DNA from: Verrucomicrobiales bacterium
GTDB lineage: Bacteria > Verrucomicrobiota > Verrucomicrobiia > Verrucomicrobiales > DEV007
NCBI GenBank assembly: GCA_002698785.1
Contig: PAAG01000019.1
Span: 186,001-250,000, forward strand
Length of the DNA: 64,000 nt
Direction: 5' to 3'
The notes under the pieces were generated by a model that was not told the DNA's origin, did no database searches, and saw only the letters and a list, made by a program, of their open reading frames with translations. The position numbers were made by a program, and so were the translations under genes. Below, piece after piece: positions 22,170-28,841 of this stretch; position 1 is the stretch's first letter, and every line of letters starts with the position of its first letter.

Positions 22170-23417
22170 ATGAATAGAATTCTCCTGATAGCGTGTTTTG
22201 CTCTCGTGGCAGCGACGAATGCAGTAGCCAGCGAAGATGCGCAACTCCACTGGCACCACTCTTACGACGAGGCCCTCGCTGAGGCGAAGGAAACCGGAAA
22301 GCCACTGTTTGTGGAGTTCCGGTGCGCCCCTTGAATGAGCGGGCGCGTCTTCGATGTGCAGGTCGTGCACACACCACCAGAATCATCCCGAGGCCAACTG
22401 CTTCAGCAGTATGTGCTCGCTCGTGTCATGAGCATGCAGGATATCAATCTCGATCTCTACGATTATGATCGACATAATGCGTTGTATTTCTTCGCCGTTA
22501 ACGCAGAGGAGCAGATCTATTTTCGATACGGAGGACGTGACTCCGAGGCACCCGATACCTATCTCAATCTCGACAGCCTTGAGCTCGCACTCAAGGCCGG
22601 ACTGCAACAGCACGATCTCTATCGAGAAGGAAAACGTGTAGGCACAGCTCCCCCGGCACCACGATACCCACGCGACATTCCGGGCATTCAGAAGTTTGTC
22701 CTCGATCGTGGTCGCTGCGTGGAGTGCCACCACCTGGCCCACTTCGAATCCATGGAACTGGAACGCTCCGGGGAACTCGACAAGCTCCGGCACATGTATC
22801 GCAGCCCGGACATCAAAAAACTCGGGATCCATTTAGATATCCCTCAGGGCCTACGCATTGCCGAGGCCAAGGGAGCAGCACTGAAAGCCGGACTCGCTAC
22901 GGGAGATGTCATTCTTGAAATCGAATCGGAACCAGTCATTACCTTCGGCGATTTCCAGTATCGTCTCGACAAGGTGGACCGCAGGGCCACAACGCTATCG
23001 ATCGCAGTCGAACGGAAGGGAGAAAAGAAAGAAATCGAGATCCAGTTGCCCGACCTCTGGTTTGTTACCGACTTGGAACACCGGTTCTGGACCATTGAAC
23101 CCCGTCTCTATTTTGAAGCGGATCCTCTGAGCGTCGACGAAAAGAAATCCCTGGGATTTCCTGATGACGGATTTGCCTCGCGAGTTACGGAAGTTCCTTT
23201 CGAAGCCATGCTCGAGCAGGCAAATGAACTGGAAAAGGGAGACATCATTTATTCTGTAGACGGAGTCGAGAGAGATGACGTGGCCAAGGACGCCGCTCTA
23301 TATGTGAAGCTGACATGCCGCTCGGGCGATACCGTAACGCTCGGAGTCCTCCGCGGAGATGAGCGCATCGAGTTACCCCTGAATACAAAACGGAAGTCTT
23401 TCCGCCGCCTCGATTGA
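22170..23417 (+). CDS. Predicted selenoprotein: thioredoxin-like CxxU / CxxCH / PDZ secreted protein
   Basis: 415 residues if the in-frame TGA at 22332-22334 is read as selenocysteine (residue 55). Before it: an export signal (NRILLIACFALVAATNAVAS) and a thioredoxin-7-type opening, HWHHSYDEALAEAKETGKPLFVEFRCAP. The TGA stands where related proteins carry the second Cys of CxxC, giving C-A-P-U, and the reading frame continues without interruption. After it: more thioredoxin fold (RYGGRD), a CVECHH motif that could bind heme c, a PDZ domain (AAGLATGDVILEIE region, about 225-290) and a second PDZ-like part. A hairpin with a GGUC loop lies 20 bases after the TGA. A new start at the ATG directly after TGA (22335) would lose signal and active site. 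Overlaps or abuts the EF-hand gene downstream. A simple nonsense mutation remains the alternative. Confidence 0.75.
22355..22371 (+). promoter_or_regulatory. Candidate bacterial SECIS hairpin
   Basis: TGTGCA-GGTCG-TGCACA: perfect 6-bp stem with loop GGUCG. The loop GG-U is about 31 bases from the U of the UGA, within the 16-37 base range described for bacterial SECIS elements. The apical GCAGGUC closely resembles the loop of the E. coli fdhF element, as I recall it. Confidence 0.65.
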
Positions 23418-23425
23418 ACCCTGAT

Positions 23426-24283
23426 ATGACTTCCCCCACATCTCCCCTGACAATTCTCCTATTGTTCCTTCTCACCACTCTGGCGGGGCATGCGACTGCG
23501 GAAGATCCCTCTGAGTCCCCCCTCCCCACCGATGTCCTTCAAGCGGTGAAAGAGATGTGCGACGGATATGCCGAACGAATCATGCCCGGCATCCTTGAAT
23601 ACGACGAAGATGGCGACGGCAAAGTGCAACTGCGCCCGCTCGTAAGCGATCTGATGAAACGCGGGTTCGCCAGAACCAGTCCCTTCCCGCCAGGCATGGA
23701 CGACGAGCTGGAACGCTCGAAATTTGCTCGAAATCAAGAGTGGCAGGCCAATGCAGACCGTGAAATTGCAAAAGAGTTTGGCACCGATGATGAAGGAAAC
23801 ATCCTGAAGATAGGAGTCTCATCCGCCATTCAAAGCATGATGCTGGGCTACTTGAACCGAATGGGACCTCTCGACGTCGACAAAGACGGAAAACTCAATT
23901 TCAAAGAATACGCCATGGGGTTTCCCGTCACCGACAAACAGGAGGTCGACGAAGACGGACACACCGAAGAGCAGTACGATTACTTCAAAAAGAACGACAA
24001 AGATCGAGACGGTTTTATAAAAGGAAAAGAGTATATCGGAGAGCAAGACTACTGGCTCAATCTACTGGTGGGGAAATTTGTTGGTATTCTGATGATCCCA
24101 AAGGCAGACACCAACGGTGACGAAACTCTATCCCGCGAAGAACTCGCCGCGATCCTACCCGACGCCGAAGAACTCCCCGAGTCCGTTCCCTTGGCCGAAT
24201 CAGTCTATTGGATCCGCGAACTGGAAGAAGAAGAGATCGCAGCACTCGAGAAGAACCTATCAAAGCTACCATCCGAAACTTGA
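23426..24283 (+). CDS. Secreted EF-hand calcium-binding protein
   Basis: 285 residues from the ATG at 23426, eight bases after the previous stop; an in-frame TTG at 23414 would overlap that gene. Signal peptide 1-26. Four EF-hand loops are visible: YDEDGDGKVQL (residue about 60), DVDKDGKLNFKEY, KNDKDRDGFIKGKEY and ADTNGDETLSREEL, each with D-x-D-x-D/N-G-x-hydrophobic ordering. Likely a periplasmic or extracellular calcium-binding or structural protein. Close coupling to the putative selenoprotein suggests a common transcript. Partner and process unknown. Confidence 0.85.
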   Translation: MTSPTSPLTILLLFLLTTLAGHATAEDPSESPLPTDVLQAVKEMCDGYAERIMPGILEYDEDGDGKVQLRPLVSDLMKRGFARTSPFPPGMDDELERSKFARNQEWQANADREIAKEFGTDDEGNILKIGVSSAIQSMMLGYLNRMGPLDVDKDGKLNFKEYAMGFPVTDKQEVDEDGHTEEQYDYFKKNDKDRDGFIKGKEYIGEQDYWLNLLVGKFVGILMIPKADTNGDETLSREELAAILPDAEELPESVPLAESVYWIRELEEEEIAALEKNLSKLPSET

Positions 24284-24377
24284 TAGACCGTCTGCTGACT
24301 GACTAGCGTTTCCTTGTCTAGATCAATTCTTGATTCACGAATCGCGTCAGGCCATTTCTTATCAAGCTGCCCAACGC

Positions 24378-25262
24378 ATGCTTGAAGTAGAAAACCTTTC
24401 CAAAACCTATCCCGGAGGCATCGAAGCTCTTCGAGAAATCAATCTACAGGTTTCTCCCGGAATTTTTGGACTTCTCGGGCCGAACGGAGCGGGAAAATCC
24501 ACCCTCATGCGGACGCTGGCGACATTGCAACTGCCGGACACTGGCTCCGCCACACTCGATGGTATTGATCTTCTCAAAGAACCTCGAAGAGCACGGCAGA
24601 CCATAGGGTATCTCCCACAGGACGTAGGAGTGTATCCTCGTGTCTCCGCAAAAGAGATGCTCGACTATCTCGCTGGATTGAAAGGGATCACCAATTCGAA
24701 GACTCGCAGGCAGGAAGTCATGTTCCAATTGGAAAGAGTCAACCTTCTCAGTGTATCGGACCGGAGGCTCGACACCTACTCCGGAGGAATGCGGCAGCGT
24801 TTCGGCATCGCCGCTGCGCTGATTGGAAAGCCTCGCCTTCTTATTGTTGACGAACCGACAGCCGGACTGGACCCCTCGGAACGCAGGCGGTTTCAGTTGA
24901 TGCTGACAGAAGCAGCAAATGACTGCATTCTCATTCTCTCCTCCCACATTGTCGAAGATATTTCAGGCCTCTGCTCAGAGATGGCACTTGTCGACAAAGG
25001 TAGACTCCTGAGAAAAGGGAACCCTGCCGAAGTGATTCAGGAACTTGCCGACAAAGTCTGGGAGTTTGTTGTTCCGATAGAGCAATTCGCCGAGTGCCGA
25101 AAAACGCAGCACATTCTGTCGTGGAAGCCGAGGCAGGGGAAAATTCTCGTCCATGCCTGGTCGGAGTCGGGATCGGATATCACATTCCCCAAAGCTGAAC
25201 CAACCGAGCCTACACTGGAAGATCTCTACGCCTTTCATACGTCGGAGACCGAGTCTTGTTGA
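24378..25262 (+). CDS. ABC transporter ATP-binding protein
   Basis: 294 residues from the ATG at 24378, which begins with the family-typical MLEVENLSKTYPGG; the in-frame upstream stretch is atypical. Seen: Walker A GPNGAGKS, Q-loop LPQDVG, signature YSGGMRQRFGIA, Walker B RLLIVDEPTAGLDP, switch His in LSSHIVEDI. ABC-2 (drug/antibiotic exporter) subtype. Three bases separate it from the permease/peptidase fusion at 25266, its evident partner. Substrate unknown. Confidence 0.93.
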   Translation: MLEVENLSKTYPGGIEALREINLQVSPGIFGLLGPNGAGKSTLMRTLATLQLPDTGSATLDGIDLLKEPRRARQTIGYLPQDVGVYPRVSAKEMLDYLAGLKGITNSKTRRQEVMFQLERVNLLSVSDRRLDTYSGGMRQRFGIAAALIGKPRLLIVDEPTAGLDPSERRRFQLMLTEAANDCILILSSHIVEDISGLCSEMALVDKGRLLRKGNPAEVIQELADKVWEFVVPIEQFAECRKTQHILSWKPRQGKILVHAWSESGSDITFPKAEPTEPTLEDLYAFHTSETESC

Positions 25263-25265
25263 CCC

Positions 25266-28200
25266 ATGTCGATTCCCGCCCAGTTTCTGATGGAGTGGAG
25301 ACAGCAGACCCGCAGACCTTTTGTGTGGTTCTGTTTTGTCGCTTTCTTCGGATTGTCCTTCCTCGAAACCATGCAGACAGGAATCCAGGGGGTGGGCAAT
25401 ACGTGGATCAATGGCGCGGGTATGATCGCCAATCGAGGCATTATCTACACTTTGCTCGGGGTCGTTGCCATCGCAGGCATCATGCTGGAGCCATTTGTTC
25501 GTGACCGCGTTTCGAATTCCCAGGGAGTCATCCTGACTACACCTATTGACCGCCTGGGGCGCGGCCCGATCCGGTTCCTCGTGGCATTCGCAATCGTTAC
25601 CATCGCCACGTTTCTCCTGATCCCGGGAATGGTGCTCGGCGCGATGGCACCGGGCATTCCAGACGAATTGGTCGGCCCATTCGTCTTCAGCCATTATGTA
25701 AAGTCCGTGCTGTGGTTCCTCCTGCCGAACTATTTCCTGGTCGCCGTCCTGGTTTACTGCGTAGGTAATTTTTTCGAAAACCGATCGATCTGCTTCGCCA
25801 GTGCCATTCTTCTTTTCGCCGGATGGCGAATCTGCCGCATGATGCTCGGGCGAGACATTTTCCACGAAGAGGTTTTCGGACTCTACGCACTTCTCGATCC
25901 CTTCGGCAGCATCGCTTCCTTTGAAAACACGCGAGGCCTGACCGTTGCTCAACTCAACGTTACCTTCCTCCCGTTATCCGGACTCCTGCTCTACAATCGC
26001 ATCCTCTGGATCGGCATCGGTCTATTGTTTCTCGCTATTGGAACTTGGGCGATTCCAACTCGCCCTCGCCTGGCCCGCGAAAAGAAACGACGGAACAAAA
26101 AGGCAAGCGCAACAACATTTCCTGACAAGCCTCTCACAAGAGATTCTTTACAGATAAATACCATCTATCAATTCTGGCGAACGATTTGCTGGGACTTTCG
26201 CCTGACCTGGAGGCAACCAGCAGCGAGACTTACGCTGTTCGTGGCCGCGATAACCCTGTGGTGGTCGGCATCCAGTGTCACGACATACCAGTTCTCTCTT
26301 CCGAGCACAGATATTCTTGTCCATGCCACAAACTTCTATTTCGACAAGATCCTGATGCTTGCGCTCGTGTGGATCGCAGGATCGCTTTTCTGGAGGGAAA
26401 GAAGCTGGAGAGTGAACGAGCTGATAGAATCCCAACCCACGAGCGATTTTTTCATCTACCTCGCCAAGACCGTCACTCTACTGGTCGTCATACTGCTTTT
26501 CTGGCTTCTCTCGATAGGCGTCAATCTAGTCTATCAAATCACCCACGGATATTTCCGCCCTGAGCTTTCTCTTTTCTTCACAGACAGCTTTGTGTTCAAA
26601 GCCCCCTACTACCTGTGGTTCGGTATGCTAGCCATCGCCCTACAGGCTATCGTGAGAAACCGCTACATCGCGATCGCGACCGTCCTGATCGTGGCCATCG
26701 CAAGCGTGCTGCTCTACGCGCTAGACGTTCACCACCCGATGTATCATTATGGGCGTGTCAGTCACGTCTGGTATTCACTCATGGACGGCTACGGACACTT
26801 CTGGGAGGCTCACCTGTGGCTGGTCGGGTACTGGACTCTTGGTTCCGTGCTGATTTGGTTGGTTGGGTTTGGTGTCTTCCGCAGGGGAGAGCATCCCAGC
26901 AGCAGAGTTACGAGCTTCCAGCAACACTTCCGAGGCCGATTTGCAATCTCGGCAACAGGAGTGCTGGCAGCCTTCGTAACTACTGCGTTTCTTGTGCATT
27001 ATTTTTCCACCACCAAAGGTATCTGGCCACCAACAGACGGAGACAAAATCAAAGCACAGGTCGAGAAAGCCTACGGAGCAGGTTGGAGACAGCGTCTTCA
27101 GCCGAGAATCATCCGCATCGACGCCGAGATGGATCTTTACCCATCAGAAAGGCGATATCGGCTCGAAGGAAACTTCACCCTGAAAAATCCCAGCGACGAG
27201 TCGATCGAAGAAGTATTCCTCATGGGGACACCGCTGCTGAATATCGAAACGATCGATTTCGAAGGCGGCGCAGAGCTTCTCGAAATGAACAAAGACCTGA
27301 ACGTTCAAATCTGGAAGCTGAACCGACCTCTTCCAGCAGATGGTGAAATGCAGTTTCACTTTGTCACATCCCGGAATCCCCCATCCGGATTTCAGGTCCA
27401 TTCTTCTGGAGACAATGTCCCTGATGTTGCACAGAACGAACTGATCGAAAATGGCTCGGCCTTGCTCAACGTCAGACTCATGCCCGTAATCGGCTACACC
27501 GATCGAGTCGAACACAAGCCGGCATGGATGAGGCGAAAGTACGGACTCCCAGAAAAATGGGAGCCTCCCTCCGGGATAGACTCAGAATCTCAAGCCCATG
27601 CGACACTCCACCTCTCGTGGATCGAATCCGTGACCATGACGATCCGCACGGCTCCGGACCAGACGGCTCTGTATGCTGGAACGCTGGAAAAGGAATGGAA
27701 GACACCTGACGGCAGAAACGCGTTCCGATACCGGAGCGATTACAAATCACGAGGCTGGAGCGCGATTGTGTCGGGACGTTTTCAGAAACGAGCCTTCGAG
27801 CGACCAGACCTTCCAAACGTAGAGATCTATTTCGATCCACAGCATGAAACCAACGTTGATATCTTTGGGGAAGCTCTCCACGATGCCATCGCATATTTTA
27901 CCGAGAGCTACGGTCCGGCTCCGTTCGATACGTTCCGCCTCGCGGAAAATGCCCTGCACTATGACGGCTTCGGTAGTCGCGGCGGGTTGGCTCATGCCAG
28001 TGCTGTGCTGGGATGGAAATCGGACCTCGAGGCAAGCGGCGGAGAAGACATCCGCCGGCACGCCGCCGTGATGGTCGCTCTCGCATGGTGGGGCGATCAA
28101 ATCATTCCTGCCAATATCGCAGGAGCAAAAGTGATTCATTCCGGCCTTCCCTATTGGACCGCAGCCCTGTACCTGCACCAGGCGAGAGACACGGCAACGG

Positions 28201-28841
28201 ACCGCAGCCTTCGACTGCAGGAACTGATGGAGATGTATCGCGGTCGTGGAGAAATGATCGACATGGAAGCCCCCTTCATTCACGAGTTCAAAGACTCAAC
28301 CATGATTCGGAAAAAAGGTTCTTCTCTGTTTCTGTATCTCGCAGAACTCGTTGGTCCGGAGAAAATGGAAGCAATTCTGTCCGACTGGCTCGAAGAATGG
28401 CGCTATAGAGAAGCCCCCTATCCCAACGCAAAAGATCTCTACGCCCACTTCAAAGACCACCTGCCCACAGAGCACCATTCATTTCTCCGCGACTACTTCG
28501 AAAATGTTGCGATCTGGCGCACCGAAGTCATCGAAACCGAGTCCGAAGAGTTAACTGGTGGAAAATGGAAAATACGAGCGAACATCAGCGCCGAGAAAAC
28601 CTACATTTCAGGCTGGGGCGAAGAGACAAAGGCACAATTCGACATTCCCGTTCCGGTAATTGCCTTTCGGGACTCCGCATACTCAGACGCCTCACAACTG
28701 CGGTCCGAATGGATCAATCTGAAGTCTGGTGAACAATGGATTGAATGGATTCTTGAGGAGAAACCGGTTCGTATTGGTGTCGATCCGTATCTTCTTCTCC
28801 CCGACCCCAATCCTCACGACAATATCCGAAGCGTTCCATAA
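25266..28841 (+). CDS. ABC-2 permease fused to an M1-peptidase-like domain lacking HExxH
   Basis: 1191 residues. The N-terminal half (to about 570) has roughly 12 membrane helices in two ABC-2-like blocks. The C-terminal half starts near residue 600 with an M1-aminopeptidase-type beta domain (RIDAEMDLYPSERRYRLEGNFTLKNPS) and continues through a thermolysin-like part. The zinc site is lost: where M1 enzymes read HELAHQWWG this protein has AVMVALAWWG, and the following Glu ligand region is replaced in IHSGLPYWTAAL. The fusion type (permease/M1 aminopeptidase) is known in Bacteroidetes and PVC bacteria, often with an intact site. Here the domain is probably a periplasmic binding or scaffold module of the transporter. 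Confidence 0.88.
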   Translation: MSIPAQFLMEWRQQTRRPFVWFCFVAFFGLSFLETMQTGIQGVGNTWINGAGMIANRGIIYTLLGVVAIAGIMLEPFVRDRVSNSQGVILTTPIDRLGRGPIRFLVAFAIVTIATFLLIPGMVLGAMAPGIPDELVGPFVFSHYVKSVLWFLLPNYFLVAVLVYCVGNFFENRSICFASAILLFAGWRICRMMLGRDIFHEEVFGLYALLDPFGSIASFENTRGLTVAQLNVTFLPLSGLLLYNRILWIGIGLLFLAIGTWAIPTRPRLAREKKRRNKKASATTFPDKPLTRDSLQINTIYQFWRTICWDFRLTWRQPAARLTLFVAAITLWWSASSVTTYQFSLPSTDILVHATNFYFDKILMLALVWIAGSLFWRERSWRVNELIESQPTSDFFIYLAKTVTLLVVILLFWLLSIGVNLVYQITHGYFRPELSLFFTDSFVFKAPYYLWFGMLAIALQAIVRNRYIAIATVLIVAIASVLLYALDVHHPMYHYGRVSHVWYSLMDGYGHFWEAHLWLVGYWTLGSVLIWLVGFGVFRRGEHPSSRVTSFQQHFRGRFAISATGVLAAFVTTAFLVHYFSTTKGIWPPTDGDKIKAQVEKAYGAGWRQRLQPRIIRIDAEMDLYPSERRYRLEGNFTLKNPSDESIEEVFLMGTPLLNIETIDFEGGAELLEMNKDLNVQIWKLNRPLPADGEMQFHFVTSRNPPSGFQVHSSGDNVPDVAQNELIENGSALLNVRLMPVIGYTDRVEHKPAWMRRKYGLPEKWEPPSGIDSESQAHATLHLSWIESVTMTIRTAPDQTALYAGTLEKEWKTPDGRNAFRYRSDYKSRGWSAIVSGRFQKRAFERPDLPNVEIYFDPQHETNVDIFGEALHDAIAYFTESYGPAPFDTFRLAENALHYDGFGSRGGLAHASAVLGWKSDLEASGGEDIRRHAAVMVALAWWGDQIIPANIAGAKVIHSGLPYWTAALYLHQARDTATDRSLRLQELMEMYRGRGEMIDMEAPFIHEFKDSTMIRKKGSSLFLYLAELVGPEKMEAILSDWLEEWRYREAPYPNAKDLYAHFKDHLPTEHHSFLRDYFENVAIWRTEVIETESEELTGGKWKIRANISAEKTYISGWGEETKAQFDIPVPVIAFRDSAYSDASQLRSEWINLKSGEQWIEWILEEKPVRIGVDPYLLLPDPNPHDNIRSVP

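Follow-up and report, generated by a model that had tools for sequence, protein, structure and literature searches.

Results

A frame with one internal TGA encodes a thioredoxin and PDZ protein

The window, that is the whole stretch of 64,000 nucleotides of Verrucomicrobiales DNA analysed here, carries on its forward strand a frame (22170-23417) that reads M...FRCAPU55MSGR...RRLD-stop when its internal TGA is translated as selenocysteine (Sec, U). The features of this gene and of its neighbour are the following.

22170..23417, + strand: gene for a Sec-containing Trx7/PDZ protein, 415 residues plus stop, single internal TGA (397.7 bits against NF041199)
22170..22229, + strand: probable signal peptide, residues 1-20 (judged by eye; N terminus of low pLDDT in the model)
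22251..22625, + strand: thioredoxin-like domain, residues 28-152 (Pfam Thioredoxin_7; structural match 3f9u, Z 14.4 over model residues 24-152)
22323..22334, + strand: C-A-P-U redox motif, with the TGA of Sec55 at 22332-22334 (column Cys or TGA throughout the tallied loci)
22355..22371, + strand: candidate SECIS hairpin, 6 bp, loop GGUCG (conserved at the level of the family; register common to loci L023, L079 and L094)
22716..22730, + strand: CxxCH motif (C183, C186, H187), a possible heme c or metal site (100/100 rows covering the motif, gene copies kept in)
22809..23075, + strand: first PDZ domain, about residues 214-302 (Pfam PDZ_2; MamP and Deg PDZ structures)
23094..23396, + strand: second PDZ domain, about residues 309-409 (Pfam PDZ; HtrA-type PDZ structures)
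23426..24283, + strand: exported-looking EF-hand protein, next gene and probably in the same operon (Pfam EF-hand; homologue adjacent in other Verrucomicrobiota and Lentisphaerales loci)

ORF calling with TGA as a stop splits the Sec gene, and the ORF list contains only the part located after the TGA. The original prediction had placed an in-frame TGA at the second Cys of a CxxC motif (CAPU), between a thioredoxin and a PDZ part, and had pointed to a CVECHH in the same protein. We confirmed that the TGA at 22332-22334 is the sole internal one; with read-through, Pfam recognises Thioredoxin_7 (residues 28-88, E 1e-8) and two PDZ domains (PDZ_2 in two stretches, E 4.3e-16), and CVECHH is present at residues 183-188 (22716-22733), its first five residues (183-187) forming the CxxCH. 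The N terminus of the protein, MNRILLIACFALVAATNAVA, resembles by eye a signal peptide, and after the TGA the frame stays open for 360 codons that hold conserved domains.

An AlphaFold2 model of the Sec protein, built with 43 sequences, has a mean pLDDT of 90.6 and a pTM of 0.86. When the Foldseek matches were re-examined by structural alignment of 989 chains, residues 24-152 of the model resembled thioredoxin-fold domains, best of all 3f9u (Z 14.4), and in the same alignment the PDZ parts matched MamP and HtrA-type PDZ domains. Further along the window, an ABC ATPase (24330-25262) adjoins a 1191-residue protein (25266-28841) with weak similarity to ABC-2 permeases (E 0.002) and, by eye, the look of an M1-type peptidase at its C terminus.

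The protein belongs to a catalogued family

The window protein reaches 397.7 bits against the NCBIfam model NF041199 (trx7_PDZ_seleno), whose cut-off is 300, over profile positions 2-389 of 390 and residues 27-405. It has the architecture of this family, Thioredoxin_7 followed by PDZ with Sec or Cys in CxxU/C. The 20 members of one alignment that were scanned all matched the model at E ≤ 0.001, member 1 being above the cut-off. The original prediction of a new selenoprotein does not hold in this respect, since the protein is a member of the catalogued "Trx7/PDZ domain-containing (seleno)protein" family.

The family is listed in a table row of PMC9312934 as "PDZ domain-containing protein, Thioredoxin_7, CxxU" and in one of PMC13188914 as "Trx7/PDZ domain-containing protein, NF041199, CxxU, 1"; the word PDZ is absent from the main text of PMC2398784 as available to us. 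Titles and abstract openings on selenoproteins with DsbD, UxxU or PDZ, which cover the field in part, mention neither an nDsbD-like partner nor a UxxU motif for NF041199, and the sole mention of DsbD in the accessible part of PMC13188914 concerns another selenoprotein, TsoB. The accessible parts of the literature examined give no function for NF041199.

Relatives carry Cys or TGA at the same position

In the window's bacterial family, the genome search matched relatives in 38 of 74 genomes. A genome scan with the single window protein as query returned zero relatives; the GTDB scan, for which the query was a profile of the closer protein alignment, yielded 63 loci that are titled as Verrucomicrobiota, Lentisphaerales, Acidobacteriota, Planctomycetota, Hydrogenedentota, Poribacteria, KSB1 and one Acidimicrobiia. 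Alignment of the Cys homologues at the TGA had been proposed as a check, and every tallied locus has Cys or TGA in this column: 63/63 GTDB loci (56 CxxU, 3 UxxU, 4 CxxC) and 28/28 loci of the same bacterial family, the window gene included (L018-L045; 10 CxxU, 3 UxxU, 15 CxxC). This makes 91/91 overall, some genes standing in both sets. The tally keeps copies of one gene, whereas copies were removed for the hairpin pair counts and for the tree. Locus L100, whose frame is broken downstream, was counted in the tally and is absent from the tree and from one later alignment (A3); L046 and L047 were dropped, as they look like other thioredoxin-like proteins.

Two Sec residues (UxxU) are found in five relatives, L023 (the same as L110), L079, L094, L024 and L029. 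On a quick tree of 90 rows we counted 7 changes among CxxC, CxxU and UxxU, of which 3 for UxxU, gains or losses being counted alike. L024 stands on a long branch of this tree, which, as regards the descent of the hairpin register, leaves the window's branch unplaced relative to the UxxU clade. The window's genome itself holds two more homologues: a Cys paralogue on the same contig, about 98 kb away (L114 3645-5477, C22:109184), and a third homologue (L115 3079-4239, G000:C23) whose motif is CIPU and whose 7-bp hairpin lies in the family's main register.

The genome has the selenocysteine machinery

The original prediction had proposed a search of the genome for selA, selB, selC and selD, and all four are present. 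In this assembly (7.0 Mb, 60 contigs, 95.89% complete, 4.97% contaminated), tRNA-Sec scores 59 bits against a gathering score of 47 and is also detected by ARAGORN with anticodon TCA, selA scores 503 bits, selB 290.2 bits together with a neighbouring piece (cut-off 242.25) and selD 386 bits, with an in-frame TGA of its own in a CAGU motif. The selA, selB and selD genes share one contig and tRNA-Sec is on another. On the strand of these three genes, a PhnDCE-like ABC transporter (binding protein, ATPase and two permease-like ORFs, by eye; L116 6427-11913, G000:C53) separates selD/selA from selB and might bring in a selenium compound. The tRNA-Sec gene, away from the other sel genes, adjoins a gene that by eye resembles cysteine desulfurase (L001 1498-2831, G000:C19).

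We observed the same association across the bacterial family. In a table compiled by hand for 27 of the 38 matching genomes, selA or tRNA-Sec was found in 13 of the 14 genomes with a Sec version and in 4 of the 13 with Cys versions only (Fisher p 0.0013); one of the tRNA-Sec scans used stricter filters and may miss tRNA-Sec genes. The Sec genome in which neither was found, G048, is 53% complete. Left out of the table were G056, which has one partial Cys match and one unfetched match with TGA, and G003, G005, G010, G013, G016, G018, G025, G046, G054 and G055, which have weak short matches (E ≥ 6.9e-6); among the latter, G016, G018 and G025 cover the TGA column but resemble other thioredoxin-like proteins.

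Sec versions share a conserved hairpin downstream of the TGA

A 6-bp hairpin with loop GGUCG at SECIS distance had also been predicted. We found it at 22355-22371 (UGUGCA-GGUCG-UGCACA), with 26 nt between the UGA and the apical loop. A rule for bacterial SECIS elements given in PMC13188914 asks for a loop of 3-9 nt, a stem of 4-16 bp, a G in the first two loop positions and a distance of 16-37 nt from the UGA; the window hairpin, with its 6 bp, its loop GGUCG and its 26 nt, agrees with it in all points. Folded alone, 22349-22375 adopts the candidate hairpin as its minimum-energy structure (-7.4 kcal/mol, z -0.84). When the 51 nt that start with the UGA are folded, another hairpin, located earlier, has the lowest energy, and the stability of this segment does not exceed that of shuffles (z -0.01). 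The 5' arm of this earlier hairpin starts 8 nt past the UGA and would presumably be covered by the decoding ribosome, so that it probably need not compete. Among 20000 synonymous recodings of the window gene, 6.9% contain a bSECIS-like hairpin that is equally good (P 0.069), and elsewhere in the gene 13 of 393 codon positions do as well. The window hairpin is by itself not significant; the support for a SECIS comes from the relatives. A search of Rfam with 22250-22450 gave three matches (E 1.1 to 3.9), none of them over the hairpin, where nothing was found at E up to 5.

Downstream of the TGA, most Sec versions form a stem that encloses a loop like AGGUU; examples of the stem are GACCAGC/GUUGGUC, GACGAGC/GUUCGUC, GACGGGC/GUCCGUC and GACGCGC/GCGCGUC. 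In this main register, which was picked after viewing the sequences, the 74 distinct Sec versions have a mean of 4.47 stacked pairs against 2.04 in synonymous recodings (sd 0.13, maximum 2.45 of 500), and the 18 distinct Cys versions 1.28 against 1.02 (sd 0.19, maximum 1.61). At least four stacked pairs are present in 67/74 Sec and 2/18 Cys versions. A register-free rule (after PMC13188914, as far as available) served as a repeat test: the score is 5.73 against 4.08 in recodings for the Sec versions (sd 0.11, maximum 4.45 of 200) and 4.28 against 3.94 for the Cys versions (sd 0.25, maximum 4.56), and it is at least 5 in 64 of the 74 former and 6 of the 18 latter. For 25 Sec sequences picked by hand, covariation in the main register reaches 0.410; shuffling gives 0.198, with 0 of 500 shuffles as high, and sliding the register gives at most 0.153. 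As the sequences are related, none of these counts represents independent events.

The 3' arm of the window gene is shifted by two bases with respect to the main register, hence the loop GGUCG. The window register is shared by L023, L079 and L094, in which a U-A pair of the window is C-G; on the 25 aligned Sec sequences it is without covariation (0.057 against 0.080 shuffled). These three loci and L105-L108 are the 7 of 74 Sec versions in which the main-register stem is not formed, and at least three main-register pairs are stacked in 3 of the 18 Cys versions (L020, L034 and L052). In the 60 nt after the TGA, L105-L108 (Planctomycetota) apparently use another register (GGCC-AGUU-GGCC-like), with two-sided changes by eye. 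Taken together, the sequence comparisons indicate that a hairpin after the TGA is kept in the Sec versions beyond the demands of the protein sequence, and that in the Cys versions, as a group, it is not.

An nDsbD-like protein accompanies many relatives

Within 600 nt and on the same strand, 50 of the 59 GTDB loci scanned (48/55 CxxU, 2/2 CxxC, 0/2 UxxU) have a sequence resembling the N-terminal domain of DsbD (nDsbD-like), and all 48 CxxU loci concerned are titled as phyla other than Verrucomicrobiota. The neighbourhood table has 85 rows and includes both L022 and L091, which are the same gene. In 26 loci the nDsbD-like sequence is the following gene, 167-217 residues long, and in 21 of these it and the selenoprotein gene overlap by a single base. 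The protein looks exported and its CxxxxC is invariant. Its similarity to DsbD_N is weak: 24 of 25 members match at E up to 0.1, below the Pfam cut-off in the members tabled, and a profile of the partner compared with the PDB by sequence retrieved zero chains. The top 17 PDB matches of its model (mean pLDDT 90.1) are without exception N-terminal domains of DsbD or ScsB, with E 1.7e-5 to 1.4e-3 and moderate TM scores (0.43-0.51 by query length).

The nDsbD-like gene is absent from the window operon, where the neighbour is the EF-hand protein, as well as from the distant CIPU relatives and 5 of 7 Planctomycetota rows. In Verrucomicrobial Cys paralogues, including L114 of the window's genome, the nDsbD-like domain is fused at the C terminus. 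L114 also adjoins an EF-hand gene, the EF-hand neighbour in the window is homologous to those of other Verrucomicrobial and Lentisphaerales loci, and in L052 the EF-hand and nDsbD-like domains are fused.

Discussion

The TGA as a selenocysteine codon

The frame, the Cys/Sec column, the machinery and the family-wide hairpin are established at the level of sequence, and the last three bear out the original prediction of a selenoprotein. We estimate at about 0.93 the probability that the UGA at 22332-22334 is a site of Sec incorporation in a protein of the NF041199 family. Three other explanations of this codon were considered and rejected. A pseudogene or a sequencing error would need a single nonsense change, TGC and TGT being one base from TGA, and a Cys paralogue does exist in the same genome (C22:109184); it is nevertheless highly improbable, as the same codon is TGA in most relatives fetched, across Verrucomicrobiota, Acidobacteriota, Planctomycetota, Hydrogenedentota, Poribacteria and KSB1, 360 open codons with conserved domains follow, and the hairpin is under selection beyond the protein sequence. 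Termination at the TGA with a restart at the adjoining ATG (TGAATG) would yield a stand-alone PDZ protein from the 360-residue ORF that starts at 22335. This is very improbable, given that the thioredoxin domain would be cut at its redox motif and that only 3 of the 79 Sec rows, copies kept, have Met after Sec, the others having Ile, Arg, Thr, His, Val, Gly and more. A genome-wide reassignment of TGA to a standard amino acid has a chance close to negligible: tRNA-Sec, selA, selB and selD are present, and the window gene itself terminates at a TGA where its relatives end.

The role of the protein can be read in another manner, with the CxxCH and a nearly invariant His (H148) giving the Sec protein a mainly heme or metal role and the thioredoxin motif keeping this site reduced or loaded. 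The CxxCH is present in 100/100 rows that cover it and the His at column 148 in 97/99; the genome has a match to ResB, a protein of c-type heme attachment, at 44 bits (cut-off 24.6), although partial (profile 198-269 of 486); MamP is among the best PDZ matches of the first PDZ domain; and table rows of PMC13188914 list c-type heme motifs in other selenoprotein families. We consider it plausible, at somewhat less than even odds, that the CxxCH binds heme c. A mainly heme or metal role appears rather unlikely: each protein has a single CxxCH, Pfam finds no heme-domain family in the window protein, the likeness to MamP is limited to the PDZ domain, and the nDsbD-like partner speaks for thiol exchange.

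A possible thiol relay outside the cytoplasm

With Sec incorporation as the preferred reading of the codon, SelB and tRNA-Sec would decode the UGA at 22332-22334 as selenocysteine with the help of the hairpin just downstream. The product, an exported protein, would join a thioredoxin-like domain (C52-x-x-U55) to two PDZ domains through a short linker that contains the CxxCH. We suggest that the Sec thioredoxin acts as a thiol/selenol reductase or isomerase outside the cytoplasm and that the PDZ pair holds a partner or substrate protein. The usual redox partner in the family would be the nDsbD-like protein, a separate gene in Acidobacteria and other phyla and a fused domain in Verrucomicrobial Cys paralogues; the pair could thus act as DsbD minus its membrane part, and the CxxCH may bind heme c, feeding or draining electrons.

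A DsbD-like thiol relay outside the cytoplasm is proposed tentatively, its chances being just short of even. A more specific version, in which a membrane-free selenium DsbD relay uses a Sec or UxxU thioredoxin with its own c-type heme to swap electrons with the nDsbD-like partner while the PDZ domains position the substrate, is a speculative extension that is more probably wrong than right by a wide measure. If true, it would couple heme redox directly to thiol/selenol exchange outside the cytoplasm. The switches among CxxC, CxxU and UxxU, the nDsbD-like partner and the invariant CxxCH provide testable handles on the benefit of selenium to an extracytoplasmic thiol enzyme.

Comparison with known systems

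The apex of the candidate hairpin, GCA-GGUC-UGC-like (GCAGGUC in the original prediction), presumably resembles the bacterial SECIS of E. coli fdhF, compared with which we take the window loop to be one base longer and the window stem to lack the bulged U. As in fdhF, the loop begins with GG, and the distance from the UGA lies within the 16-37 nt given in PMC13188914.

Compared with NF041199, the window gene shows no essential difference; the UxxU found among its relatives is not among the motifs that the tables of both reviews (PMC9312934 and PMC13188914) give for the family. TsoB (NF045694), a rhodanese/DsbD fusion-like selenoprotein, is also catalogued with a DsbD-like part in a table of PMC13188914, and one of the 20 scanned members matches NF045694 weakly (best E 7.9e-4); the window protein does not reach this model, and TsoB differs by its UxxxxU motif and its rhodanese domain (PMC13188914).

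The PDZ of MamP is similar to that of the window protein (4jj0/4jj3, Z 11.6-11.7; 27.9 bits), a likeness confined to the PDZ domain. MamP carries CxxCH, its magnetochromes follow its PDZ, and it is not known to have a Trx domain, whereas in the window protein a single CxxCH precedes the PDZ pair.

The likeness to DsbD and ScsB concerns both parts of the proposed pair. The Trx domain is nearest, among the 989 chains aligned, to 3f9u (Z 14.4), the C-terminal domain of a putative exported cytochrome c biogenesis-related protein, and the neighbouring or fused domain of the Trx7/PDZ family folds in its model like nDsbD, with an invariant CxxxxC. As for the differences, there is no obvious transmembrane part in the genes of the pair, the sequence similarity of the partner to nDsbD is weak, and the window protein has a Sec in place of Cys and an added CxxCH and PDZ domains.
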